Assembly (NCBI GenBank): GCA_958296075.1
Contig: CATQHW010000001.1
Span: forward strand, 372,001-436,000
Reading direction: 5' to 3'
Source: an uncultured Spirochaetia bacterium
Lineage (GTDB): Bacteria; Spirochaetota; Spirochaetia; SZUA-6; Bin103
Length of the DNA stretch: 64,000 nt
The position numbers and the translations under genes are program-made. How positions within the stretch are numbered: position 1 is the first letter of the stretch; each line of letters opens with the position of its first letter. This document shows, in pieces, positions 2,003 to 32,202 of the stretch. The notes beneath the pieces were generated by a model, which worked only from the letters and a program-made list of their open reading frames with translations, made no database searches and was not told where the DNA came from.

Positions 2003-3802
2003 TTACTGCACGTCGATGCGCACGGAGGTCATGGCGCCGAACGGATCGCCGGCCAGCAGCCGGCGGTGGGCGTCCTGGTCACCCTTGAGGTACCAGTCGA
2101 ACCACGCCCGCGCGTACCAGTCGCGGATCACGTGCGGCAGGTACACCTCGTCCCCCGTCGCGGTGGCGGCCCAGCCGAGTTCGGTGTAGCTCTCGCCGGC
2201 CTCTCCGGGCGGTCCGAACGCGGCGGCGCCGGTCGGCTTGCGCGAGCGCTCGGGCGACATCGCGAACGGCAGGTTGCCGCGGCGGAACTCGGGCCAGGGG
2301 AACTGCCGCGCGAACTCCTCGGCAAGGGTGCCGTGATTGGTGTCGCGCACGATCACCAAGCCGCGGTCGCCGGCGGCGCGGAGCCAGCCGCTCAGGGCCA
2401 CCGGCTGCGGATTGTCCATCCGCTCCGGCGCGGCGCGTTCCGGGGCCAGCGGAAAGGCCACGGACGGGTCGCCGCCGGCGGCGGCGACCGTGGACTGAAA
2501 CAGGCCGACGAACACGCCCTGCACGAACTCATCCTCGTCGCCGATCATCTGCAGCACCGGTTTGCGGCTGCCCACCGGCAGCCCGTCCCGCTCGCCGGCG
2601 CCGAACATCTCTTCCGGCGTCCAGGTGAATGGCGGCGCATTATTCATACCGAACGCGGCGCTTACCCCGGGCACGTGGTTCGCCGCCAGTTGCGCGGTCA
2701 TGGAGCCGAGGGAATGGCCGGCTACGCCGACCTTATCGCCGTCGATCCGTCCCGCCAGCAGGCCGCACAGCTCGCGCGCCGCGGCCGTCGCTCCCAGCGA
2801 CTCGAGCGAGGCCTGGCAGGTCCCCGCATCCGCCCCCAGCAGCCGCATGGTGCGGATCAGCAGCGCCACGTCGGAGACGCGCTGGCGGAACAGGTTCCGC
2901 ATCATGGTCGTCGCCCGCTCCACGCCGCCCGGAACGAGTCCGGCGGAGGCCGGGTCGAAGCTGTCCGGCGGGCCGAAGCCCATGTCTTCCACTCCGAACA
3001 TGAGACGGTAGAAGTAGGGCACGACCTTGAACTCGCCGAAGATCGTCTGATAGGCGCGCTGCACCTCCGCCGGCGACCGGGCCGCGGCAAATGGCGAATC
3101 GGGGTCGTGGAACACCAGCGGCATGCCGCCGTCGGAGATGAAGGTCGGCGCCGCCACCACGTAGCCGTGCGAGGCGAGGAACTCGCCCAGAGTGCTCCAC
3201 ATGGAGTGGGAGCCGCCGAGGCCGTGGGCCACGACGATCAGCGGAAACCGGCCCTCCGCCGGCGGCGCGTCGAGCCAGGCGCCGCGCGGCGCGGTGACGA
3301 GGCGCCGGCCCAGCTCGGAGAACATCTGTCCCTGAGCGGCGGCGCCGGCGTCGGCGAGGGTGCCGCCGCCCTGCACGTGAAGCAGGTTCGGGTCCACCGG
3401 CAGGCCGCCGGCCAGCGCCTGCCCGAGGGCCTGGTCGCCGAAGAAGAAATCGAGAAAGTTGGCGCGCCGGCCGCTGGCTGCGGCCACCGGCGACCGCGGG
3501 CCGGCCACGCGTCCGGCCGAGCCGTCAGCAGCGGCCGGATACCACACGTGGAACACCACGGTGCGCCGTTGTCCGGTCGCTTCGATCTCGCGCATCAGAT
3601 CGCGATACCCGGGACTGGCATACGTGGCGGTCCACGGGTCGAAGCGCTGCTGGTCGTCGACGGCGAATCCCATCACCGAGCCGACCGCGTACTCACCGTA
3701 GACGGCGCTAGGCGGCAGCTCCTGCATCTGTGCCGCGACCGGGAGGGCGAGAAGAGACCCCACGAGAATAGCGGAGGCTATGGTACGGGCTGAACTAGTC
3801 AT
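2003..3802 (-). CDS. Secreted alpha/beta hydrolase (PAF-acetylhydrolase/dienelactone-hydrolase-like)
   Basis: The 599-aa protein starts with a signal peptide (hydrophobic TIASAILVGSLLALPVAAQ, predicted cleavage after AAQ). It shows the alpha/beta-hydrolase oxyanion region LIVVAHGLGGSHSMWS near residue 190, the nucleophile elbow VGVAGHSLGSM near residue 360 (Ser nucleophile), and a late DTNHG that could carry the catalytic His. It is longer than typical family members (300-450 aa), with an insertion between strand and elbow. Substrate unknown; a periplasmic or secreted esterase/lipase is the likeliest role. A TTGACA (3834-3839) stands upstream, with a weak -10 next to the start. It is followed on the same strand by the truncated ATP-binding gene, with no evident functional link. 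Confidence 0.7.
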   Translation of the reverse strand: MTSSARTIASAILVGSLLALPVAAQMQELPPSAVYGEYAVGSVMGFAVDDQQRFDPWTATYASPGYRDLMREIEATGQRRTVVFHVWYPAAADGSAGRVAGPRSPVAAASGRRANFLDFFFGDQALGQALAGGLPVDPNLLHVQGGGTLADAGAAAQGQMFSELGRRLVTAPRGAWLDAPPAEGRFPLIVVAHGLGGSHSMWSTLGEFLASHGYVVAAPTFISDGGMPLVFHDPDSPFAAARSPAEVQRAYQTIFGEFKVVPYFYRLMFGVEDMGFGPPDSFDPASAGLVPGGVERATTMMRNLFRQRVSDVALLIRTMRLLGADAGTCQASLESLGATAAARELCGLLAGRIDGDKVGVAGHSLGSMTAQLAANHVPGVSAAFGMNNAPPFTWTPEEMFGAGERDGLPVGSRKPVLQMIGDEDEFVQGVFVGLFQSTVAAAGGDPSVAFPLAPERAAPERMDNPQPVALSGWLRAAGDRGLVIVRDTNHGTLAEEFARQFPWPEFRRGNLPFAMSPERSRKPTGAAAFGPPGEAGESYTELGWAATATGDEVYLPHVIRDWYARAWFDWYLKGDQDAHRRLLAGDPFGAMTSVRIDVQ

Positions 3803-4046
3803 CGATCAATCTGTGCCCCATGATCCCGCCGCCTGTCAATGCGCAAGTGCGCTGGCGGCCGCCAGCGCCCGCGCCAACGACCGCAGTCCTCCCGCTCCGC
3901 GGTCCAGCCGACCGCGCCCCGTCAGCGCCGCCACCGAGCCCGGATGCGCGGTTTCACCGCTGCGGATGAAATGCCGCGCAAGCGGGCTCCCGGGCTGACT
4001 TGGCGCGCGCGGCGCATCAGGCTTCGATGCAGCACACCGCCGGCCG

Positions 4047-5126
4047 TTACGCGGTTGCAGCCGACTGGGGACGCACGGCCATGCCGACGTAGGCCTTCGC
4101 CACCGTTCGGGCGCCCCGCTCGATGACCACCTTGACGTGGTTGATACCCTGATGGACGAGGTACGTCTCTCCGCCGCCCAGCAGGCGTTCGGTATTCGGC
4201 CAGCGGCGCAGCCCTTCGGCTTTCGCGGGAAGGCACCAGCCCCGCTCCTCGATCCGGGCGATCAGGGGGCGCCACCCCGTACGATCGACCGGAAACCAGT
4301 TCCGGGAGCGGTACAGCTCCAGACCGAGCCGCGGCCCCGGCCCCTGCGCGGTCACGTCCAGGCTGACAAAGACGTAGGCGACAAGGTCGTCCAAGGAAGT
4401 GATTACGTCCGCCGCCGCGGCCGTCGGGCCGGGCCACTGCAGCCGCTCCAGCAAGGCGGGCACCTCTTCCTTCGTGACGCCCGCGACGACCAACCGGAAT
4501 CCCTTTGGGGAGCGCGCCGGAAGAACTCCGGCCTGGAACACGTAGCCCGTTTCCGGCAGGGCCGAAAAGATGCGTTCGACTCCTCGGAGAAACTCGTCGT
4601 GGCCACTCCAGCCAGCGACGGCCGCGAGCGTCGCGAGCAGGCCCTCGGGATCCCGATGCTCGTGGACCCCCTCCCGCGATCCGGAGGCGGAGCGCCGCGC
4701 CGCGAGGAAGATGCCGGGGGAGGACGCTGGGGAAGGCGGCGTGAGTCCGGCCAGATCGTATTCCAGCATCAGCGCGGCCACGGACCGGGCGAGGTAGGAC
4801 TCCGTATTCCCGGCCTGTTCCAGAAGCCCCGCCCCGAGCGCGGCCGCCGCCGACCCCGGCTCGGCGTGCGCGCCCTCGCGGATATAGTGCTGCGCCAGGG
4901 CGGACCCCGACGGCACAACGACGCAGAGATCGGCGTGACCCATGGCCTCGCCGAGATGGAACTCGAAGCCGAAATGGGTGTCGATCACGGCACGGGGCAA
5001 CACCCCCACTCGCTCCAGGAGGCGTTCCCAGCCGGCGGAATCGACCAGCGCCGGCGGGAACAGGGAGCGGCATCCGGCAAGGATCGAGGCGAAGCCGCCC
5101 CGCGTCGAGCGGCTTACCCCGTCCAC
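4047..5126 (-). CDS. Unknown protein next to an NHLP RiPP precursor; candidate maturation enzyme
   Basis: The 359-aa product has no signal peptide or membrane helix, and I cannot assign it to a named family with confidence. Notable features are FGFEFHLGEAMGHADLCVV near residue 55, GPRLGLELYRSRNWF near residue 265, then RGWCLPAKAEGLRRWP, and a closing GINHVKVVIERGARTVAKAY. The ending (HVK...AKAYVGM) is reminiscent of conserved hypothetical proteins beside RiPP synthetases and, more weakly, of the last strands of cyanobactin-type prenyltransferases; this is recollection, not a search. It starts with GTG 90 bp downstream of the precursor gene on the same strand. No cyclodehydratase, radical SAM or LanM gene is nearby, so it is the only local candidate modifier. 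Confidence 0.6.
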   Translation of the reverse strand: MDGVSRSTRGGFASILAGCRSLFPPALVDSAGWERLLERVGVLPRAVIDTHFGFEFHLGEAMGHADLCVVVPSGSALAQHYIREGAHAEPGSAAAALGAGLLEQAGNTESYLARSVAALMLEYDLAGLTPPSPASSPGIFLAARRSASGSREGVHEHRDPEGLLATLAAVAGWSGHDEFLRGVERIFSALPETGYVFQAGVLPARSPKGFRLVVAGVTKEEVPALLERLQWPGPTAAAADVITSLDDLVAYVFVSLDVTAQGPGPRLGLELYRSRNWFPVDRTGWRPLIARIEERGWCLPAKAEGLRRWPNTERLLGGGETYLVHQGINHVKVVIERGARTVAKAYVGMAVRPQSAATA

Positions 5127-5215
5127 TGGATGCCGAGCAGTTCTACCCCCTCGACTAGGACTCCCCGAAGACGACGAGACGACTTCTTAACCCAGAACGG
5201 CCCCGAAAGCTCAGG

Positions 5216-5503
5216 TCAAAGCTCCCACGGCTCCCGCCCCACACCGGCCCAGGAGAACCCTCCCGCGGCCTGCTCCAGATCGGCTTCACCCAGATTGGCG
5301 GAGGGCGGAAGGATCAGGTGACTGATATCCGCCGTGTCCTCGTGCACCTCGACGGTGAACCCGGCGGGCACGTCGACGCCGATTTCCGCCTGGATCGCGG
5401 CCTTGGGGTCGGCGATCAACCGGGTGCGGAATTCGCCGTCCACCGTCGCCTTGCCGATCACGCGATCACGCATCTCGCTGATGGTCGCCGTTTTCTCGTT
5501 CAT
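5216..5503 (-). CDS. NHLP-type RiPP precursor peptide 1
   Basis: The 95-aa peptide has the nitrile-hydratase-like leader architecture: an amphipathic start, then FRTRLIADPKAAIQAEIGV, then VEVHEDTADISHLILPPSA, ending in LEQAAGG at residues 81-82. Cleavage after GG would release the core FSWAGVGREPWEL (13 residues). The core has no Cys or Thr, one Ser and two Trp, so lanthionine or azole chemistry is unlikely. The start is set by a strong ribosome site (AAGGAGAGG) just upstream of the ATG. A promoter with a special upstream element precedes it (5541-5610). A paralogue of identical length lies at 29967-30254. Confidence 0.85.
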   Translation of the reverse strand: MNEKTATISEMRDRVIGKATVDGEFRTRLIADPKAAIQAEIGVDVPAGFTVEVHEDTADISHLILPPSANLGEADLEQAAGGFSWAGVGREPWEL

Positions 5504-5540
5504 GTTCCTCTCCTTCTTCGGGAAAGATTTGCTGACTGAA

Positions 5541-5648: not shown

Positions 5649-8600
5649 TCAACCGAGTCGCAGGTCGTCCGACACCTCGGACAGCAGCTCGTTGATCTTC
5701 GCCACCGCTTCGGCGGCGGCCGGACCCTCACCGCCGAGCTCGACGCGGAGGTTGAACTTCAGGTCGTGGCCGACTGCGGCCTGGGCGATTGCGGGAATCT
5801 GATCGGCCAGGTCCTGGATGCCGTTGGCTTGCAGGACCGCCTCCGCCGTGAGCACGCCCGGCCGATGCGCGGCCGGAGGCCACCCGCCGCCGCGGTCCGG
5901 CGGCTTGGCCGGCGGGATTGTCAGGACCACGTGCCGGGCGCCGGCAAGATCGCACGGCCAAGCGGCGCTCTCGGCGCCGAGCTCGACCCAACGGGCGCGG
6001 ATCGCGTCCTCGATCACCGCGCGCACTGCGGTCCAGGGGAGGGTCACGCCGTGCCTGGTCGACAGCGCCGCGGCCACGGCGAGGGCGTTGGTCGCGCCGT
6101 CCTGCCACGCCTCGGGGATCGACTCGGCCATGATTTCATCGACGGGTATCCGGGCGGGCGGCGGCCGCAGGGTGGCGGCGGCGCCGAGCACGCCGGCCGG
6201 CACCGGCTCGCTCAGGATCGACGCCGGCCCGCTGGTGAGCCAGACGATGCCCTGCTCGACCGCCTGCAGCACCGCGGCGCCGACCTGCGCCGGTTCGCAC
6301 GCCGGGGTCACGAAGGTCTCCTCGTAACCCTCACGCGGCACGGTGACTTCGGAGCCGCCGGCGAAGTAGTCGTACACCTCCTGTACGGTGATCGTCTCCG
6401 CGGACCAGAGCGCCGGGAGCTCCCCCGGGCGGAGCAGGCCGGGAGCGAGCCCGCTGAGCGTTGCGGCGGCGGGCAGCAGCAGTTCCAGGCCGGCGTCGTC
6501 GAGCGCCGGCTGGTCGATGGCGGTGCGCCAGAACGTCCGCACCGTCCGGTCCGGGCGCGTCACCTGCGCCACCCAGATGCCGGCCTTCACTCCGTCCACC
6601 ACGGTGTCGAGTATCTCCTTGCTGCGCAGCATCTTCGGCAGCTTCGGATACTGCGCGAAGGCGCCCACCAGGTCCTTGACGCGGCGCGACTGCTCATCCT
6701 CCCGCCAGAGGTCATAGGGGCCGCCCGGCAACAGCGTTTCCGCGTTGATGGCGGTCTCCTGGATGCGGGACCGCTGATCGGCCTTGATGGCGGTGAACAA
6801 CGGCTCGTCGCCCACGACGACCCGGAACGCCTCTATCGCGTCGCTCTCGCCGACGGTCACCACCACGCAGTAAGCGGACCGGACGGCGTTCGGGATGCGC
6901 TTGCGGGCGGCTGCGATCTCAGCGGCGAGCATCTGTTCGCGCAGCGGATCGATCGGCTGCTCCTGCAACTGCGCGCGCACTTCCTCCCACCCGAGGTACT
7001 CCCGCACGCGGGCGCGGGCGCCATCGAGGCCGTCGGGCGAGGGCGCGGCCACGACGATCGCGTTGCGGTAGACGCGGCGCCGGTCCGGCGTCGTGGTCTG
7101 GTCGATGAAGCGGCGCGCTGCCGCGCTCGGCTTGCCGGTGTCCGAGGCCGCCTGCGGGCCGAGCACGACGTAGTGGAACTCTCCGTCATCGGCCACGTCG
7201 CGCGGCCGCGCCGGCAGGTTGTGCGCCCGTGCGCCGGCCGCGACTGCACCGGCGGTGAGCGTCCGTTGCTTCTCGACGGCATCGAGGAGCTGGGATTCGA
7301 CCAGCTCCGGCGGCACCCGGTTGCGGCAGGCGTCGTGGTGCATCTGCCGCAGGTTGGGGCGGTTGCCCAGCCGCCACGCCGCGGGCAACCGGCCGCCCGC
7401 GCCGTCATCGGCGCCGCGCGCAGCCGCCTCCACCTCGTCCAGAAACCACGACACCTCGGTCCAGCGCTGCAGCCCTCTCTCCAGCTCTATCCGGTCCGGC
7501 TTGCCCGCTCCGAGCAGCACCAGCAGCTCCGGCGTCAACGCCTTCTGGTTGATCGGCTGGCAGCTCAGGAACACGGCGACCACCGCCTGCTCCAGCTCCC
7601 GGTGATGGAGACGGGCCGCGTCGGCCTGGAGCAGGCGCGCCTTGGCCAGTTCGCCTTCGAGGATCGGGCGCCACTCGTGGCGCGATCCGGCGCCGGTGTC
7701 GACGCTGGCGCAGGACGCCAGCTCGCTCGCCGCTTCCGCCAAGTCGTTCCGGTCCGGGTGGTTCAGGAACACGTTGGGGCCGATCAGCGGGCTGGTGTCC
7801 CACGACTCGGCATCCCGCAGGGCGGTGGCGAACGTGCGCAGGATGCCGCGCGTGCGCTGGAAGCCGTCGAGCTGGGTCCACCGCGTGTAGAAGATATCGG
7901 TGAGCGCCGGGTGAAAGGGATAGCTCCGGAGATAGCGCTGCTCGGCGACGGCCCGCTCGCGGGCGGTCTGCTCGTCGCGGGCGGCGATGCTGCCGACCGC
8001 CGCGGCCACGTGCGGCCGGAACGCGTCCTGATCGCGGATCGACTCCGGCGTGAAGAAGCGGCGCCGCAGCACCTGCGCCACGTCCTCCTTGCTCACCGGA
8101 CTGGCATCCTCCTCCATCTGCCGGCCGAACACCTCGGACACGTCGCGCAGCAACTCGTTGCCCAGCTCGTCATGCTTGCGCGGGTCGGAGGCGAGCAGCG
8201 ACGCCACCAGGGCGCAGCGGTCCACCTTGACCACCGCCTGCGTCAGGTACTGAAAGAAGCTGATCAGCCGGCCGCGCCAGCTCGGGTCGGTCTCGACCTG
8301 GGCGCGGAGGTACGTCAGCACTTCGTCGAGCAGCACCAGGGTCGCCAAGCCGTCGGCCTGCGGCCGGGCCAGCAACTGCGCCACCAGCGGTTCGGCCGGC
8401 GGGGTCTCCCGTTCCGCGTCCCTGCCGTCGGCGTGGATCAGCCGCAGGCCGTCCGCGCCCGCAAGTTGCCAGGCCAGCACGCTCCACGGCTGCCGGAGCG
8501 CCCGCACCGTCCCGTCCGGGCCGGGCGTGTCCACGCCCTTCTCCAGGTCGATCTTGTCGAAGCACAGCGCCGCAACCCGTGCCCGGGGTGTCCTGAAACC

Positions 8601-8972
8601 GACGTGCGCCTCGAACTCCCGCAGCGCGGGCAGGTCGGGAAGCTCGGCCGGGGCGTGCGCCAAGTGACGGAGCGCAATCAGCGTGTGGGTCTTGCCGCCG
8701 CCGTAGTTGACCGCCAGCTTGCGGTACGCCCGGTCGCTGCGGCCCGCCAGGCGCAGGGCCACCTCCTTGACCAGCTCCCGCAGATTGAAGGTGGGGTAGG
8801 TCAGGGCGAAGAACTCGGCCGGGTGCTCGTAGACCGGCCGCTGCCCCTGCTGCATCACCACGTCGTACAGGTCGGCGGCGAACACCGCCAGCGACAGCTC
8901 GCCGCTCTTCAGATCGTCGCGCAGCCGCACGACTTCATGCCAGGGGCTCGGAGATATACGCGACGTGCTCAT
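5649..8972 (-). CDS. DUF499 family ATPase, defence-associated
   Basis: The 1107-aa protein opens with SPWHEVVRLRDDLKSGEL, characteristic of DUF499. A Walker A loop, NYGGGKTHTL, spans residues 89-98. An acidic LVLLDEVLTYL (about residue 210) serves as Walker B. The rest is a long ATPase core with a C-terminal alpha/beta region. DUF499 ATPases are repeatedly found beside DUF1156 methyltransferases and helicases in antiphage loci, and DISARM-related arrays contain both; the mechanism of the family is not settled to my knowledge. Here it is the last gene of the minus-strand block, separated from the DUF1156 gene by a decayed VapBC remnant. It looks intact. Confidence 0.85.
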   Translation of the reverse strand: MSTSRISPSPWHEVVRLRDDLKSGELSLAVFAADLYDVVMQQGQRPVYEHPAEFFALTYPTFNLRELVKEVALRLAGRSDRAYRKLAVNYGGGKTHTLIALRHLAHAPAELPDLPALREFEAHVGFRTPRARVAALCFDKIDLEKGVDTPGPDGTVRALRQPWSVLAWQLAGADGLRLIHADGRDAERETPPAEPLVAQLLARPQADGLATLVLLDEVLTYLRAQVETDPSWRGRLISFFQYLTQAVVKVDRCALVASLLASDPRKHDELGNELLRDVSEVFGRQMEEDASPVSKEDVAQVLRRRFFTPESIRDQDAFRPHVAAAVGSIAARDEQTARERAVAEQRYLRSYPFHPALTDIFYTRWTQLDGFQRTRGILRTFATALRDAESWDTSPLIGPNVFLNHPDRNDLAEAASELASCASVDTGAGSRHEWRPILEGELAKARLLQADAARLHHRELEQAVVAVFLSCQPINQKALTPELLVLLGAGKPDRIELERGLQRWTEVSWFLDEVEAAARGADDGAGGRLPAAWRLGNRPNLRQMHHDACRNRVPPELVESQLLDAVEKQRTLTAGAVAAGARAHNLPARPRDVADDGEFHYVVLGPQAASDTGKPSAAARRFIDQTTTPDRRRVYRNAIVVAAPSPDGLDGARARVREYLGWEEVRAQLQEQPIDPLREQMLAAEIAAARKRIPNAVRSAYCVVVTVGESDAIEAFRVVVGDEPLFTAIKADQRSRIQETAINAETLLPGGPYDLWREDEQSRRVKDLVGAFAQYPKLPKMLRSKEILDTVVDGVKAGIWVAQVTRPDRTVRTFWRTAIDQPALDDAGLELLLPAAATLSGLAPGLLRPGELPALWSAETITVQEVYDYFAGGSEVTVPREGYEETFVTPACEPAQVGAAVLQAVEQGIVWLTSGPASILSEPVPAGVLGAAATLRPPPARIPVDEIMAESIPEAWQDGATNALAVAAALSTRHGVTLPWTAVRAVIEDAIRARWVELGAESAAWPCDLAGARHVVLTIPPAKPPDRGGGWPPAAHRPGVLTAEAVLQANGIQDLADQIPAIAQAAVGHDLKFNLRVELGGEGPAAAEAVAKINELLSEVSDDLRLG

Positions 8973-8989
8973 GCTATCGATGTTCCCCT

Positions 8990-9180
8990 ATGAAGCTGTT
9001 CCCCGCCCAAGACGGCCAAGCCGCCGACCTCGATCTGGTCAACCGCCTGCGTGATACGGATTCGTGAGCTACCTGCTGGAGGTCAACTTTCTGGTCTCTC
9101 TGTTCGATCCGCGGCCCGTGAATCGCTTGCCGGCACGCCGCTGGCACCGGTCGTGGCGCTGGTCCAGTGATCACCGTGAA
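8990..9180 (+). pseudogene. VapBC-like toxin-antitoxin remnant
   Basis: A 25-aa frame (ATG 8990, stop 9065-9067), MKLFPAQDGQAADLDLVNRL, resembles an antitoxin fragment. It overlaps, GTGA-style, a frame starting at 9064 with VSYLLEVNFLVSLFDPRPVN, the first strand and helix of a PIN-domain toxin. The usual first catalytic Asp (LLDVN) is Glu here. After about 20 residues the PIN sequence drops into other frames (ITVNEVVNGS reappears near 9165), and no full domain exists. This is a decayed module squeezed between DUF499 and DUF1156, on the opposite strand. Confidence 0.55.
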
Positions 9181-9188
9181 TGAAGTGG

Positions 9189-12100
9189 TCAACGGGTCAG
9201 CAGCTCCTTCTGACGATAACCCATACCGCCGCGGGCGACTACGTGATTGCTCAGGGCTTCGAGCAGCGAGCGCTCTTCGGAGCCGGCGCCGGCCAGCTCG
9301 ATGAGCGCCTGCAGGAGACGGTTGAACAGCGCGCTGCGCAGCAGGCCGTGGTCTCGGAGGTGGTCGTCGACCCTGGCCTTATCCCCGGCGTGCCACAGGC
9401 GCATCAGCCGGTGCACCTGGTCGATGAGCGGCGGCAGCCGCTCGCCGGGCGCTTCCAGCCCCAGGTCGCGGCCTTGACGGCGGTCCCAGGGCTTGAGTTT
9501 GACCTTGGCGCCGCTGCCTTCCGATTGTTCCTCGTCCCCGGCCGTATCTACGTCGGGCTGGTCCGCGCCGCGGCGGGCCGATTGCGCCAGCAGGTCGTGC
9601 TGGTGGACCAGTGCCGAGTCGGAGAGGTTGCATGACAGCGCATAGAGGATGCAGCCGCCCACCGGAGCCTCCCCCATACCGAAGTCGTAGCGATGGAGCA
9701 GGTAGTAGGTAGTCACGTCGTCGAGGCCGGTGGACGCCTCCGCATCGCCGTCGCGGGTCAGCACGCGTCCGACCACGAAATCGACCACGATCCGCCGCAC
9801 CTCGCGCAGAAACTCGGAGACGGTCATGAGCTCGTTCGGCGCGTTCGCCTTCTTGACGACCGGGTACCTGCTGAAGGCTTCCAGGGCCGGCCCGGTCGCC
9901 GCCCACACGAAGTCCGGCCCGCGAATGCCCGCGTCCCAGAAGTCGTGGAGCTTCCCGACGACGTTCGCGCGCATCTGGTCGAGGACGCCGCCGTCCCAGC
10001 CCGGGCGTGTGCCGGTGCGCTTACGACAGACCAGCCAGATCGACGACGCCAGTGATGCTCTGCCGTAGTTGCGGACTCCGCCGCGCATCTCCGTAGCGAT
10101 TGGCCAACTGCCGTCGACGACGAATCCCGCTCGAATGATGGCTGAGACCAGCGTCTCCCAGGCATCCGGCCTCTTGTTGGCAAAGACGACGAGAAGCCTG
10201 CCGCTTGGCGGTAACGCTGAGTGGCAGGTCCGAAACGCGCGTGCCATGCCGTCTTCGTAGCTCTCTTTGGACTGAGCTCTGTCGCCGTTGAACCGGCTTG
10301 CGTCGTCGATCAATTCTCCGTCGTTGTCGTCCGCGCTCCACTTTGGCCCTAACGGTTCCCGGAATGACCTGTCGAATTCGGCAGCCAGGCCGGATAGCGT
10401 ACGGCGCAGCCAGATGTAAAAGAAATCCATCAGATCGGAATAGGGAATTGCGTCATAGTAGGGAGGATCCGTGACCACCAAGTCGTGCTGATCAACTGGA
10501 GCGATTGCGCTCTGGCACAGGACCGTCGGCGCAGTGCCGGTCCTTGGAATGGCAGGTGTTATGGAATCCAGTACCCGTGCGACGTTCGAAACTCCGCCGG
10601 CGAACAGGCGGTCTACGGAGGCAAGCGGGTTCCCCTCGGCGAAGTCCCAGGTAATCGGCAAGGCGAACCGCAGGAATGTCTGCTTGATCTCGGAGGCGAC
10701 CGGCTCCCATATGCACAGCGTGCTCATGTAGTTGGCGGCACGATCCAATGCGGCTGCGAGCAGAGCGACTACCGCACGCAGAGCCTCGCCGTCACCGCGA
10801 AAGGACTCCGAGGCCGGAATGCTCCGTATCGTTCCGATGAGCGTCCCGAGCGCCAGGAGCTGACGGTTGGTGAACAGTCTTCGCCAAGTATGGAAGCCAT
10901 ATCCATCTACCGAGAAGGCACGCGATGCGCCCCTTCCTGCCTTCGGCGTCGGCTCCTCCGGCAGCCCGAAGGGAATGTCCGCGTAGACGGCTTGGAGCTG
11001 TTCCTCGGTAACCTCGGCCGCCGCACGCTCATGCTCGGTGGGCCGGCGGTACTCCTTGCCGTTGGGGCCATCGATTACCACGACCGTCATGACCGTACCC
11101 AACCCGGAGCGTCCTTCCAGGCGGATATCCTGCATGGTCATGATCGTCCGGCAGCACGGGCAGGTTGCGCCGACGCGCGACATGGTGCCGGAACCGATGC
11201 GCTTGTCGTGCTCCCGCCGCTGCGCCGCGTTGCCGCCACGCTGCGGTACGACGGCCTGCACGCCGAACACGACGCCCCGCCGCGACTCGTCGGGCTCCAT
11301 CGTCAGCAGTACGCGCTTGCGCTCCTTCTTGCACAGCCAGCGCGTCTTGAGCAGCGGCAGCACGGCGCGGCACCGCTTGCAGATGACCGTGCGCGCGTGC
11401 AGATAGGCGACCGCGGGTTTGGCGACCCACCGAGGGTTGCGGGCGTCTTCCAGGTACTCGGCGTCGAATTCCGCGTTCAGCGCGTCGATCTGCGGTTCTC
11501 CCGCGTCATCCGCCTCCAGCAACCGCAGCGGCCGCGAATCGCAGTCATGGCCACGCTTCAGCGGTACGAACTCGGCGTAGACAGGGTAGCGGGCCGCCAG
11601 CTTCTTACGCGCCTGCGCCAGCACCCACCGGCCCCATGCTCGTACCTGCCACGCAAGGTCCGCGTCGAGCAGCGGATCATCGGGCTCGATGAGGTCGAAC
11701 TGAGTTTCATCATGGTCACCGTGCCCAAGCCGCTGGAGCAGGGCACGCAGCGTGGCGCCCTTGAATCCGTGGGCCTTCAGAAGCGCCTCCATGAAGTCCG
11801 CGTCGCGCACCGCAAACTCAGGCAGTGGATGCGTCCGACCAGCCAGTCGCTGCGGGTAATCAAGCGTGCACTTGAGGATGAACCACGCGACCGGATTGAT
11901 GTCGATCGCGGTCACCTCGCAGCCGAGCCGCATCGCTTCCAGCGGAATGGCGCCACCGCCCGCGAACGGGTCCAACACTCTCGGAGCCCGCCCGCCGTAC
12001 GCCTTGCGAATCTCGTCCCGAAACCACTGCAGATCGTCGCCGTTCTCCCGGCCCCAGTGAAGGATGCCGCCCGCCGTCTCCTCCTTCACGTTCTCCACCA

Positions 12101-12395
12101 AGCGGCCATTGACGCGCTTGCGCTCCACCTTCTCGACCACTCGACCAGCCATCCGTTCCAGAATCGCCTGCCGCCGTTCCCCATCGCCGGGATCGGCAAG
12201 CAGCGTCGCAATCAGCGCCGCCCGGCACGCCGCCAGGGGCCGCCGCGCCGGCCAGATATGCAACGTCGAGACATGCCCGTGCCGCACGTTCTTCTCGTGC
12301 ACCGAATCGAGCGACACCTGCTTCAGCGGAAACGCCGCCTCGATGAGGCGCCTGTCGCTGCGTTCTATATCCACCATCCCCCCGTGGAACGGCAC
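9189..12395 (-). CDS. DUF1156 family adenine-specific DNA methyltransferase, defence-associated
   Basis: The 1068-aa protein has the DUF1156 N-terminus (IEAAFPLKQVSLDSVHEKNV, HIWPARRPLAACRAA), a SAM-binding motif I DPFAGGGAIPLEAMRLG at about residue 142, and the catalytic motif TDPPYYDAIPYSDLMDFFY near residue 640. This motif order marks a large beta-type N6-adenine (or N4-cytosine) methylase. A Cys-rich insertion (ICKRCRAVL, CPCCRTIM) suggests a zinc-binding segment. In DISARM-related systems such enzymes mark self DNA. The start could be the GTG at 12395 or the ATG at 12377 (MVDIERSDRR). It is followed by DUF499 and preceded by a PIN toxin/antitoxin pair. Confidence 0.88.
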   Translation of the reverse strand: MPFHGGMVDIERSDRRLIEAAFPLKQVSLDSVHEKNVRHGHVSTLHIWPARRPLAACRAALIATLLADPGDGERRQAILERMAGRVVEKVERKRVNGRLVENVKEETAGGILHWGRENGDDLQWFRDEIRKAYGGRAPRVLDPFAGGGAIPLEAMRLGCEVTAIDINPVAWFILKCTLDYPQRLAGRTHPLPEFAVRDADFMEALLKAHGFKGATLRALLQRLGHGDHDETQFDLIEPDDPLLDADLAWQVRAWGRWVLAQARKKLAARYPVYAEFVPLKRGHDCDSRPLRLLEADDAGEPQIDALNAEFDAEYLEDARNPRWVAKPAVAYLHARTVICKRCRAVLPLLKTRWLCKKERKRVLLTMEPDESRRGVVFGVQAVVPQRGGNAAQRREHDKRIGSGTMSRVGATCPCCRTIMTMQDIRLEGRSGLGTVMTVVVIDGPNGKEYRRPTEHERAAAEVTEEQLQAVYADIPFGLPEEPTPKAGRGASRAFSVDGYGFHTWRRLFTNRQLLALGTLIGTIRSIPASESFRGDGEALRAVVALLAAALDRAANYMSTLCIWEPVASEIKQTFLRFALPITWDFAEGNPLASVDRLFAGGVSNVARVLDSITPAIPRTGTAPTVLCQSAIAPVDQHDLVVTDPPYYDAIPYSDLMDFFYIWLRRTLSGLAAEFDRSFREPLGPKWSADDNDGELIDDASRFNGDRAQSKESYEDGMARAFRTCHSALPPSGRLLVVFANKRPDAWETLVSAIIRAGFVVDGSWPIATEMRGGVRNYGRASLASSIWLVCRKRTGTRPGWDGGVLDQMRANVVGKLHDFWDAGIRGPDFVWAATGPALEAFSRYPVVKKANAPNELMTVSEFLREVRRIVVDFVVGRVLTRDGDAEASTGLDDVTTYYLLHRYDFGMGEAPVGGCILYALSCNLSDSALVHQHDLLAQSARRGADQPDVDTAGDEEQSEGSGAKVKLKPWDRRQGRDLGLEAPGERLPPLIDQVHRLMRLWHAGDKARVDDHLRDHGLLRSALFNRLLQALIELAGAGSEERSLLEALSNHVVARGGMGYRQKELLTR

Positions 12396-29677: not shown

Positions 29678-29950
29678 AACCACCTCGTCTTCTGACCAGC
29701 TTCGCTCCGACCCCCAGGAGCGCCGGTGGAGTCAGTGGCGCGTGATGACCGGGGCTGCGACGGGCTGCAGGCGGACGTTGCCGATCACCGCCACGAACGG
29801 CAGATCGTGGCGCACGGCCGTGTCGATCTCCAGCGGGTGAAACCCGAAGGTGCCGTCTCCCATCGTCGCGGCGATGCGCGCGACGGGAAACAGCGTGCGG
29901 GCGGCGAGCGCGAACGGCAGCGCCGCCCCGCTCGCGCCTGCAGGACCGCT
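29627..29950. repeat. Segmental duplication, copy A (propeller 3' end plus TPP-enzyme 3' end)
   Basis: From 29627 (AAGGGCGTGCAGCGC) to about 29782 the sequence matches 30490-30643 almost base for base. It then jumps, by deletion of about 200 bases at a short ACGTTG-like junction, to match the region from about 30841 to 31000. Similarity is lost near 29950. Copy B is attached to the intact TPP-enzyme gene, so copy A is the derived one. Confidence 0.8.
29732..29950 (-). pseudogene. TPP-enzyme C-terminal fragment with internal deletion
   Basis: This frame encodes GASGAALPFALAARTLFPVA, MGDGTFGFHPLEIDT and then, after a deletion of about 66 codons, VRLQPVAAPVITRH. Both parts are nearly identical to the C-terminus of the intact gene at 30595-32202. 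It has no start or N-terminal domains and cannot be functional. Confidence 0.8.
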
Positions 29951-29964
29951 GAGCGGCTCAGCGG
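29946..29964 (-). terminator. Hairpin just after NHLP precursor 2
   Basis: CCGCTGAG and CTCAGCGG form a perfect 8-bp stem with a 3-base loop, two bases after the precursor's TAA. No T-run follows, so it may be a transcript-end or stability hairpin. It marks the left border of the inserted precursor cassette. Confidence 0.4.
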
Positions 29965-29966
29965 GA

Positions 29967-30254
29967 TTACCAGTGGCTAATGAGTGAGTCGACATTCCGC
30001 CCAAAAAACCTCGACTGACCCCCCGCGGCGACCGCCTGCAGGTCGCCTTCGCTCAGCTTGCTGTCGGGGGGAAGAACCAGATGCGCGGTCGCGCCGCTCT
30101 CTTCGTGAACCTCGACCGACAGAGACGCTGGAATGGTGACACCCAACTCCTGCTTGATCGCCCCCTTCGGATCGCTCAGCAGCCGGGCGCGGAAGTCCGA
30201 GTCCTCGGCTGCCTTGCCCACGATCCTCGCCTGCATTTCCTTTGCCGTTTCCAT
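29967..30254 (-). CDS. NHLP-type RiPP precursor peptide 2 (orphan)
   Basis: The 95-aa peptide is colinear with precursor 1: IVGKAAEDSDFRARLLSDPK, GVTIPASLSVEVHEE, HLVLPPDSKLSEGDL, then AVAAGG (residues 78-79). The predicted core after GG is QSRFFGRNVDSLISHW (16 residues): no Cys or Thr, two Ser, two Phe, one His and a C-terminal Trp. The start is fixed by GAGGAGG just upstream. It has the same promoter type as precursor 1. No modification or export gene is adjacent; it sits within a mosaic of duplicated fragments, so it may rely on the 359-aa protein at 4047 or on distant genes. Confidence 0.83.
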   Translation of the reverse strand: METAKEMQARIVGKAAEDSDFRARLLSDPKGAIKQELGVTIPASLSVEVHEESGATAHLVLPPDSKLSEGDLQAVAAGGQSRFFGRNVDSLISHW

Positions 30255-30489: not shown

Positions 30490-30643
30490 AAGGGCGTGCA
30501 GCGCAGCGTCTGCGAGGTGGTCCGCTGGCGACTGCCTTGAATCGCCTCGTCTTCTGAACCAGCTTCGCTCCGACCCCCAGGAGCGCCGGTGGAGTCAGTG
30601 GCGCGTGATGACCGGGGCTGCGACCGGCTGCAGGCGGACGTTG
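30490..30643. repeat. Segmental duplication, copy B
   Basis: Begins with the last 51 bases of the propeller-3 gene (copied from 29627 onward, including its TGA) and runs into the 3' end of the intact TPP-enzyme gene. Differences from copy A are a handful of single bases and small indels. Confidence 0.8.
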
Positions 30644-32202
30644 ACGCACGCGGGGAAGCCAGACGCGTGCGCCGCCTCCAGGGCCGCGGGCAGCGCGGCG
30701 GCCGATTCGACCGCGGCGCCGTAGGCGTCGAGCGCGCGGGCCACGCCGTCGTAGCGGCTGGCGCGCAGCTCGCAGCCGATCGCGCGGTCGGCTCCGTAGT
30801 TCCGGTGCTGTATCTGCACCTCCGCGTTCCAGCGCGCGTCGTTGCCGATCACCGCCACGAACGGCAGATCGTGGCGCACGGCCGTGTCGATCTCCAGCGG
30901 GTGAAACCCGAAGGTGCCGTCGCCCATCGTCGCGGCGATGCGCGCGACGGGAAACAGCGTGCGGGCGGCGAGCGCGAACGGCAGCGCCGCCCCGATCGCC
31001 CCCGCCGGACCGTTGATGATGCGATGCGGGGCGCTCACGCACGCCTGCGCCCACTGCCCGATCTCGCCGCCGTCGGAGACGAACACCGACTCGGCCGAGC
31101 CGGCCAGGAAGTCATGCACGGCATAGCCGAGCCGCGCGGGATGGACCGGCGAATCACCGCCGGCCTGACGCCAATGCGCGGGACGGTAGGCGACGGCCGC
31201 CTCGATCTCCTCGCGCCAACCGACATCCAGCGAGCAGCCGGCCAGCCGTTCTCCCATGGCCGCCGCCCACCGCCCCGGATCGCCCTGCGCCTGCAACATC
31301 AGGCGGCCGCCCGCGTTGCCGGCCGCTTGGCGCAGCGCCTCCGCCTCCGGGTCGATCTGCACGAACCGGCAGTCCGGCGCGAACGGCGGCGCCCGCCCGA
31401 GGTCCAGCATGTGGTCGAGCCGCTTGCCGAGCAGCACGACCAGGTCCGCTTCGGCCACCGCCTCCGCGAATGCGCCCAGGGCCGGGTCGCGCAGCCCGCG
31501 CGGACTGTCCATGGCGACCACCGCTACGCCCGCGTCGCTCAGACTGAGCGTCACACCGGCGGCGTGGCGGCGGCGGTACGGGGGGCCGGCGATCGCCAGC
31601 GGCCGAGCCGCCTCCCCGATCGCCCGGCATACCGCATCCAGGTCCGCCGGCGCCGGCGCGCTCCCCTCCTCCTCGGACTCGACCGCCGGCTCGGCGGCGG
31701 TCTGCACGACCGACTCCAGCACGTCGACCGGCACCGCCACGTGCACCGGGCCCGGACGTCCGGCCTTCGCACGGCGCCACGCCCGCGCGAAGTCGCCGGC
31801 GACCTGTTCGGGAGCGACGCAGGTCCACGACGCCTTGCAGACCGCGGCGGCCAGCCCGGCCTGATCCATCTCCTGGAACGCGCCGGCTCCGGGCCGCCCG
31901 GACGGGGCCGCGCCCGAAAGCAGGACCAGCGGCGACTCCGCGCACCTCGCCGCAAACAGGGCGGACAGCGTGTTGGCGAACCCCGGCCCGGCCGTGACCA
32001 GCGCGACCCCCGGCCGGCCGCTCAGCCGGCCGATGGCGTCGGCCGCGTGCACCGCCGCCGCCTCGTGACGGACGTGGATCAGCTCCAGCGGCACGTCGAC
32101 GGCGGCGTCGAACACCGACATGATCTGATTGCCGGACAGCGCGAAGACGTGCCGCGTACCGCCGGCGACGATGGCGCGCACCAGCGCGTCCGCCGCTCTC
32201 AT
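30595..32202 (-). CDS. Thiamine-diphosphate enzyme, acetolactate-synthase/benzoylformate-decarboxylase family
   Basis: The 535-aa protein has the three-domain layout: an N-terminal Pyr domain with the catalytic Glu in LIHVRHEAAAVHAADAI and GVALVTAGPGFANTLSALF, a central domain, and a C-terminal PP domain with the ThDP motif MGDGTFGFHPLEIDT ending in VIGND (G-D-G to N spacing typical). Reaction: decarboxylation or carboligation of a 2-keto acid; the substrate cannot be read from sequence. It follows the enolase-superfamily gene by 23 bases, so the two likely act in sequence on a sugar acid. A deleted partial copy lies at 29732. Confidence 0.8.
   Translation of the reverse strand: MRAADALVRAIVAGGTRHVFALSGNQIMSVFDAAVDVPLELIHVRHEAAAVHAADAIGRLSGRPGVALVTAGPGFANTLSALFAARCAESPLVLLSGAAPSGRPGAGAFQEMDQAGLAAAVCKASWTCVAPEQVAGDFARAWRRAKAGRPGPVHVAVPVDVLESVVQTAAEPAVESEEEGSAPAPADLDAVCRAIGEAARPLAIAGPPYRRRHAAGVTLSLSDAGVAVVAMDSPRGLRDPALGAFAEAVAEADLVVLLGKRLDHMLDLGRAPPFAPDCRFVQIDPEAEALRQAAGNAGGRLMLQAQGDPGRWAAAMGERLAGCSLDVGWREEIEAAVAYRPAHWRQAGGDSPVHPARLGYAVHDFLAGSAESVFVSDGGEIGQWAQACVSAPHRIINGPAGAIGAALPFALAARTLFPVARIAATMGDGTFGFHPLEIDTAVRHDLPFVAVIGNDARWNAEVQIQHRNYGADRAIGCELRASRYDGVARALDAYGAAVESAAALPAALEAAHASGFPACVNVRLQPVAAPVITRH

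Follow-up and report, generated by a model that had tools for sequence, protein, structure and literature searches.

A predicted ABBA-fold prenyltransferase paired with NHLP-leader precursors whose cores contain tryptophan in an uncultured Spirochaetia bacterium

What can an unassigned protein do to a RiPP peptide whose core offers no Cys? This question is raised by two neighbouring genes in the 64,000-nucleotide stretch analysed here (the window), taken from an uncultured Spirochaetia bacterium. The features on which the analysis draws are as follows.

5510..5515 (-): AAGGAG, Shine-Dalgarno-like, upstream of the precursor start codon (direct sequence reading)
5216..5503 (-): NHLP-leader RiPP precursor, 95 aa (TIGR03793, above curated cut-off)
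5258-5503 (-): leader part of the precursor, residues ~1-82
5219-5257 (-): core of the precursor, Cys-free, FSWAGVGREPWEL
4047..5126 (-): predicted ABBA-fold peptide prenyltransferase, 359 aa, GTG start (AlphaFold2, Foldseek, VIA, conserved residues)
3857..3997 (-): B-type prenyltransferase gene, remnant, immediately downstream of the intact A-type gene (tblastn)
29967..30254 (-): second, solitary NHLP precursor with a C-terminal Trp core, (G)QSRFFGRNVDSLISHW (TIGR03793, 71.5 bits)

Both reading frames of the pair, described in the initial annotation as a Cys-free NHLP precursor and an unassigned 359-aa protein, were recovered at these positions. TIGR03793 (leader_NHLP) matched residues 9-82 of the precursor with 65.8 bits (E 2.3e-18), above the curated cut-off of 50.9 bits, and the closest paralogue in the window's genome (G000 C1:630824) has the core WSWSEGSGASWWH. 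The 359-aa gene lies 90 bp downstream of the precursor, and its product ends not in AKAYVGM, as first read, but 10 residues further on, in AVRPQSAATA. A counterpart in another MAG shares 77% identity over 353 residues, indicating that the reading frame is a real gene. The two genes had also been taken for each other's sole neighbours on the strand; the flanking genes at 2003-3802 and 5649-8972 are in fact on the minus strand as well, although neither has an apparent link to the pair. The remnant at 3857..3997 aligned in tblastn with a B-type copy (68% over 28 aa) and with the window protein (49% over 45 aa), which indicates that the locus formerly held more genes. On the other side of the pair, two large adjoining genes of 1107 and 1068 aa occupy 5649-12395 (-), the second with a DPPY adenine-methylase motif; they possibly encode a defence-type ATPase and a DNA methyltransferase.

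Fold and conserved residues of the 359-aa protein

Searches of the 359-aa protein against Pfam and NCBIfam gave no match at E <= 1, a PDB sequence search returned nothing meaningful, and an alignment of 18 family members found no useful match in any of the three. The family has no Pfam or NCBIfam model, so genome-mining tools that depend on such models would miss it. An AlphaFold2 model was built on an 11-sequence alignment (the window protein and ten relatives) and reached a pLDDT of 77.8 and a pTM of 0.80, with the other four AlphaFold models at pLDDT 56-68. It contains five beta-beta pairs with helix pairs between them. All 38 Foldseek matches in the PDB at E<=0.001 were ABBA prenyltransferases, PagF included, with TM-scores of ~0.5. 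Furthermore, VIA realignment gave Z 17.5 to FgaPT2 and at least 17 to several other tryptophan/indole prenyltransferases, the class to which most of the best structural neighbours belong. According to this model, the protein has the repeated alpha-beta-beta-alpha barrel of the ABBA superfamily. The structure prediction proposed in the initial annotation thus supports, at the level of a model, what had been a loose guess at a prenyltransferase. A trans-isoprenyl-synthase fold (all-alpha, ComQ/PalQ-like) was ruled out, since the model is a beta barrel.

E122, K332 and K344 are invariant across 34 family members with identities down to ~21%, and E55, D66, D124, R205, R211, D257 and Y346 are nearly invariant across the same 34. 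The conserved residues are also present in the Pseudanabaena, Nostoc and Azospirillum relatives. Most of them lie on predicted strands, in part with i/i+2 spacing (E122/D124, K344/Y346), and would be expected to face the barrel lumen. Conservation and strand position make the basic, acidic and Tyr residues candidate equivalents of known active sites, where basic and Tyr side chains in the barrel bind the diphosphate. A fold with no catalytic pocket had been named beforehand as an outcome that would speak against the guess; the model instead offers a candidate pocket whose residues are retained at the same depth of divergence.

Pairing with precursors and the core tryptophan

NHLP precursors number at least eleven in the window's genome, which encodes the enzyme four times. 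Every enzyme copy adjoins a precursor, and several precursors are solitary. By a rough estimate, adjacency would arise by chance for 0.2% of copies and for all four with a probability of ~2e-11; the pairing is therefore not accidental. Across the close family, a same-strand NHLP precursor lies upstream of all 17 full-length copies, nearly always within 250 bp. Four MAGs labelled Binatia or Gammaproteobacteria contain close relatives, in islands of up to ~13 precursors with 2-3 enzyme copies; a sponge origin of these MAGs is only a guess. NHLP or Nif11 precursors likewise adjoin more distant relatives, found in Azospirillum and cyanobacteria. The neighbourhood survey suggested in the initial annotation thus places homologues next to RiPP precursors in the genome itself, in the MAG islands and in distant bacteria, rather than consistently away from RiPP genes. 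The term 'minimal two-gene locus' describes the immediate surroundings well. It does not hold for the genome: elsewhere there are three further copies of the enzyme and nine or more further precursors, together with a cyclase-like gene, a JmjC oxygenase and an NHLP exporter.

The second precursor in the window ends in ...SLISHW, confirming the terminal Trp reported for it, and no prenyltransferase adjoins it. Positions 29732-30004 repeat parts of an acetolactate-synthase-like gene (30595-32202, -), an apparent partial 3'-end duplication beside this precursor that suggests its insertion by recombination.

The Trp content noted initially for the window core has counterparts in related precursors. 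Among 49 distinct cores, which are not 49 independent observations because related precursors share ancestry, Trp was present in all, Cys in none, and 27 ended in Trp; no other side chain was found in every core. In the 37 cores examined first, Trp accounted for 10.8% of residues, vs 0.06% in the leaders. Lanthipeptide or heterocycle chemistry was rejected for these cores, as they have no Cys and no LanM or YcaO was seen beside the window pair.

The enzyme tree has two fully supported clades, with the window copy in clade A. A Trp-ending precursor lies upstream of 6/6 clade B copies vs 1/11 clade A copies, whose precursors place Trp before the end (hypergeometric p 0.0006, uncorrected for relatedness). 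A Trp at the very end is found again behind other leaders and in other phyla: Azospirillum B510 has two such NHLP precursors (..IPRKW and ..NKKPW), Pseudanabaena galeata has a Nif11 precursor of this kind within a LanM cluster (..PPIKW), and genome G122 has one with an NHLP leader (..KVNIW). Exceptions are a relative with a Tyr-ending core (..AGSGYY, G001), a relative in Nostoc UHCC 0926 near NHLP precursors with Trp-free cores, and, in G456, G459 and G465, precursors whose cores carry CCC.

Terpene cyclase, oxygenases and export

Many enzyme copies adjoin a gene for a cyclase-like protein of ~330 aa. All nine members searched gave weak matches to squalene-hopene cyclase domains in Pfam, and a profile of the protein found squalene-hopene cyclase (2.7e-16), drimenol synthase (3e-13), AstC and MstE in the PDB. 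A DLDD/DMDD motif is present in 3/11 members and DLDS in the rest, and a QW-like QxxxGxWPE motif in all 11; an AlphaFold model reached a pLDDT of 36. Judged by profile similarity and motifs, the partner is class II terpene-cyclase-like. Among 143 genomes related to G453, the enzyme occurs in eight, the cyclase in eight and both in seven (p ~3e-10). Moreover, prenyltransferase and cyclase form one polypeptide in G014 (L052, 668 aa, DMDD motif). The window's own genome encodes one such protein (G000 C2:976225-977190, 502 bits; DLDS, not DxDD) directly after a prenyltransferase copy. The window pair has no cyclase gene beside it, and the window protein has no cyclase domain.

An NHLP-leader-bearing cyclase lies near a prenyltransferase in G456, G457 and G459. 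At L097:10738-12105, L099:10588-11922 and L100:14834-16171, an NHLP leader domain is fused to the N-terminus of the cyclase-like protein, with the prenyltransferase adjoining in L097 and L099.

A JmjC oxygenase often accompanies enzyme and cyclase, and a single cluster (L094) combines precursor, cyclase, prenyltransferase, JmjC and an NHLP HlyD-type secretion gene. In G001, two similar genes lie side by side, one of them for a P450-family protein. The JmjC and P450-family proteins could possibly add oxidation. The genome's own NHLP exporter, above the TIGR03796 cut-off, is on contig C2 and unlinked to the window pair; in G001, G469 and others, NHLP exporters are linked to enzyme loci.

Proposed pathway, alternatives and known systems

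Taken as a whole, these observations are best explained by leader-guided ABBA prenylation of the core Trp, with cyclisation of some products, a reading to which we assign a probability of roughly 0.78. The 359-aa enzyme would dock on the folded NHLP leader of its upstream partner precursor, and probably also, in trans, on the leaders of solitary precursors elsewhere in the genome. It would then use an isoprenyl diphosphate as donor and attach the isoprenyl moiety to a Trp indole of the core, which is short and hypervariable. The acceptor is likely W85 or W93 in the window precursor, and the last Trp in Trp-ending precursors. The class II terpene-cyclase-like protein probably cyclises the attached chain of at least some products, and the JmjC oxygenase probably tailors at least some, both in this genome and in relatives. 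The NHLP-type peptidase-exporter, encoded at an unlinked site on contig C2, would cleave the modified peptide behind the AGG motif and export it. The leader match, the fold model, the repeated pairing, the core composition and the co-occurrence and fusion with the cyclase are computational results, from which we infer the steps between leader binding and export, along with the acceptor atom, chain length and step order. A broader reading, possible although on the doubtful side, is a dispersed combinatorial terpenoid-peptide system: at least eleven hypervariable peptides with NHLP leaders would be lipidated in trans by four related Trp prenyltransferases that share a single class II cyclase, relatives would stack more than a dozen precursors per island, and in some of them the cyclase would use its own NHLP leader domain as a docking tag.

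The enzyme might instead prenylate another residue (His, Tyr, Arg or the C-terminus), with the core Trp kept for export, target binding or later modification. ABBA peptide prenyltransferases acting on Ser, Thr, His, Arg and Tyr are known (PMC12715784), and the Tyr-ending core of G001, the CCC cores and the Trp-free Nostoc cores would suit such an activity. We nevertheless consider it quite improbable, given that Trp is the sole side chain shared by 49/49 distinct cores, that its terminal position recurs across leaders and phyla, and that the nearest structures are mostly tryptophan/indole prenyltransferases. The conservation of basic, acidic and Tyr residues, nearly without exception and as expected for an active enzyme, bears on a further alternative, in which the ABBA-fold protein is a non-catalytic leader-binding partner and Trp is brominated as in srp systems, hydroxylated by JmjC or cross-linked by radical SAM. 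SrpI does brominate a C-terminal Trp of proteusins (PMC10858898), some clusters include JmjC and radical SAM genes, and certain relatives carry a fused SPASM or 2OG-oxygenase domain. However, no halogenase was recognised among the examined genes beside the enzyme, most pairs in the genome itself have no further modifying enzyme next to them, and the terpene-cyclase partner indicates isoprenoid chemistry; this alternative appears very improbable.

It could also be asked whether the window pair is a decaying satellite, its enzyme intact and the local pair disused, with the active system in the contig C2 islands. The B-type remnant just downstream and the location of tailoring and export genes elsewhere fit that picture. 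Both reading frames are intact, however, the leader scores above the cut-off, the enzyme retains all conserved residues and the precursor has a good ribosome-binding site, and we regard disuse as unlikely.

Leader-guided prenylation of a core Trp would be chemistry of a known kind, as MppC (ABBA, leader-dependent Trp prenylation) and NctPC (Trp prenylation and cyclisation) have been published. According to a review (PMC13290415), NctPC (2024) joins an ABBA-type prenyltransferase and an MstE-like terpene cyclase in one fusion protein, which geranylgeranylates Trp and cyclises the chain. As described there, it shares with the window enzyme an ABBA fold of low similarity to cyanobactin enzymes, and with the predicted window system the action on a ribosomal-peptide Trp together with a class II cyclase; its fused architecture recurs in L052 of G014. 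The window enzyme, compared here with NctPC by description, is in contrast a stand-alone protein of 359 aa, and the cyclase partner is encoded separately and at a distance in the same genome (G000 C2:976225-977190). MppC, the lanthipeptide prenyltransferase of Moorena producens, is ABBA-type and leader-dependent and geranylates a core Trp behind a long structured leader (PMC12715784). Pseudanabaena galeata has a distant relative of the window enzyme within a cluster of the MppC type, with LanM and a Nif11 precursor. The window locus, again likened by description, differs in its NHLP leader, its Cys-free core and the absence of a LanM seen beside the pair, so that its product would have no lanthionine ring.

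PalQ/PalX forms a minimal cluster in which an NHLP precursor with a C-terminal Trp lies beside a Trp prenyltransferase (PMC10853753); PalQ belongs to the isoprenoid-synthase superfamily, whereas the window enzyme models as an ABBA barrel. The cyanobactin F family (TruF, LynF, PagF; TIGR04445) has the barrel in common with this model and acts on peptides, as predicted for the window enzyme. These enzymes work after leader removal, whereas the window enzyme is predicted to be leader-guided, and TIGR04445 searches gave no match at E<=10 in the window's genome and none at E<=1 in 18 family members. SrpI clusters of sponge microbiomes also contain proteusin precursors with a C-terminal Trp as modification site (PMC10858898). 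Their enzymes form azol(in)es and brominate, in contrast to the Cys-free window cores and the predicted prenyltransferase. The stand-alone family lacking a database model, the dispersed pairs, the precursor-rich islands, the separate cyclase and the leader-tagged cyclases appear to be new, although some of these may be covered in work on NctPC, which is known here through the review's description. No description of a dispersed, many-peptide version with a separate terpene-cyclase gene was found in the literature examined.

Leader-guided ABBA enzymes are scarce, and peptide prenyltransferases are in demand for selective lipidation. The family brings dozens of natural Trp-containing cores for tests of substrate rules, and a separable cyclase partner would allow the order of prenylation and cyclisation to be tested directly.

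Several minor observations concern more distant loci. Enzyme relatives at L053:8104-9714, L054:11918-13522 and L057:836-2428 are fused to a C-terminal SPASM-like domain; NHLP exporters and a B12 radical-SAM RiPP methyltransferase lie beside the L054 copy, and Cys-bearing Nif11-like precursors adjoin the L057 copy. In the LanM/Nif11 cluster of Pseudanabaena galeata pPg_03, the relative at L111:6007-7800 is fused to a 2OG oxygenase and annotated only as 2OG-Fe(II) oxygenase. NHLP precursors at L096:14029-14289, L098:15384-15638 and L100:8549-8800 have very short CCC cores (..RCCC, ..WCCCGN and ..LCCCW), and their genomes carry deeper-branching prenyltransferases. Finally, a run of short, repeated and very GC-rich reading frames (MARGSVVE.., MMETPVTLG..) at L044:12825-18782 (-) is probably one large repetitive gene.
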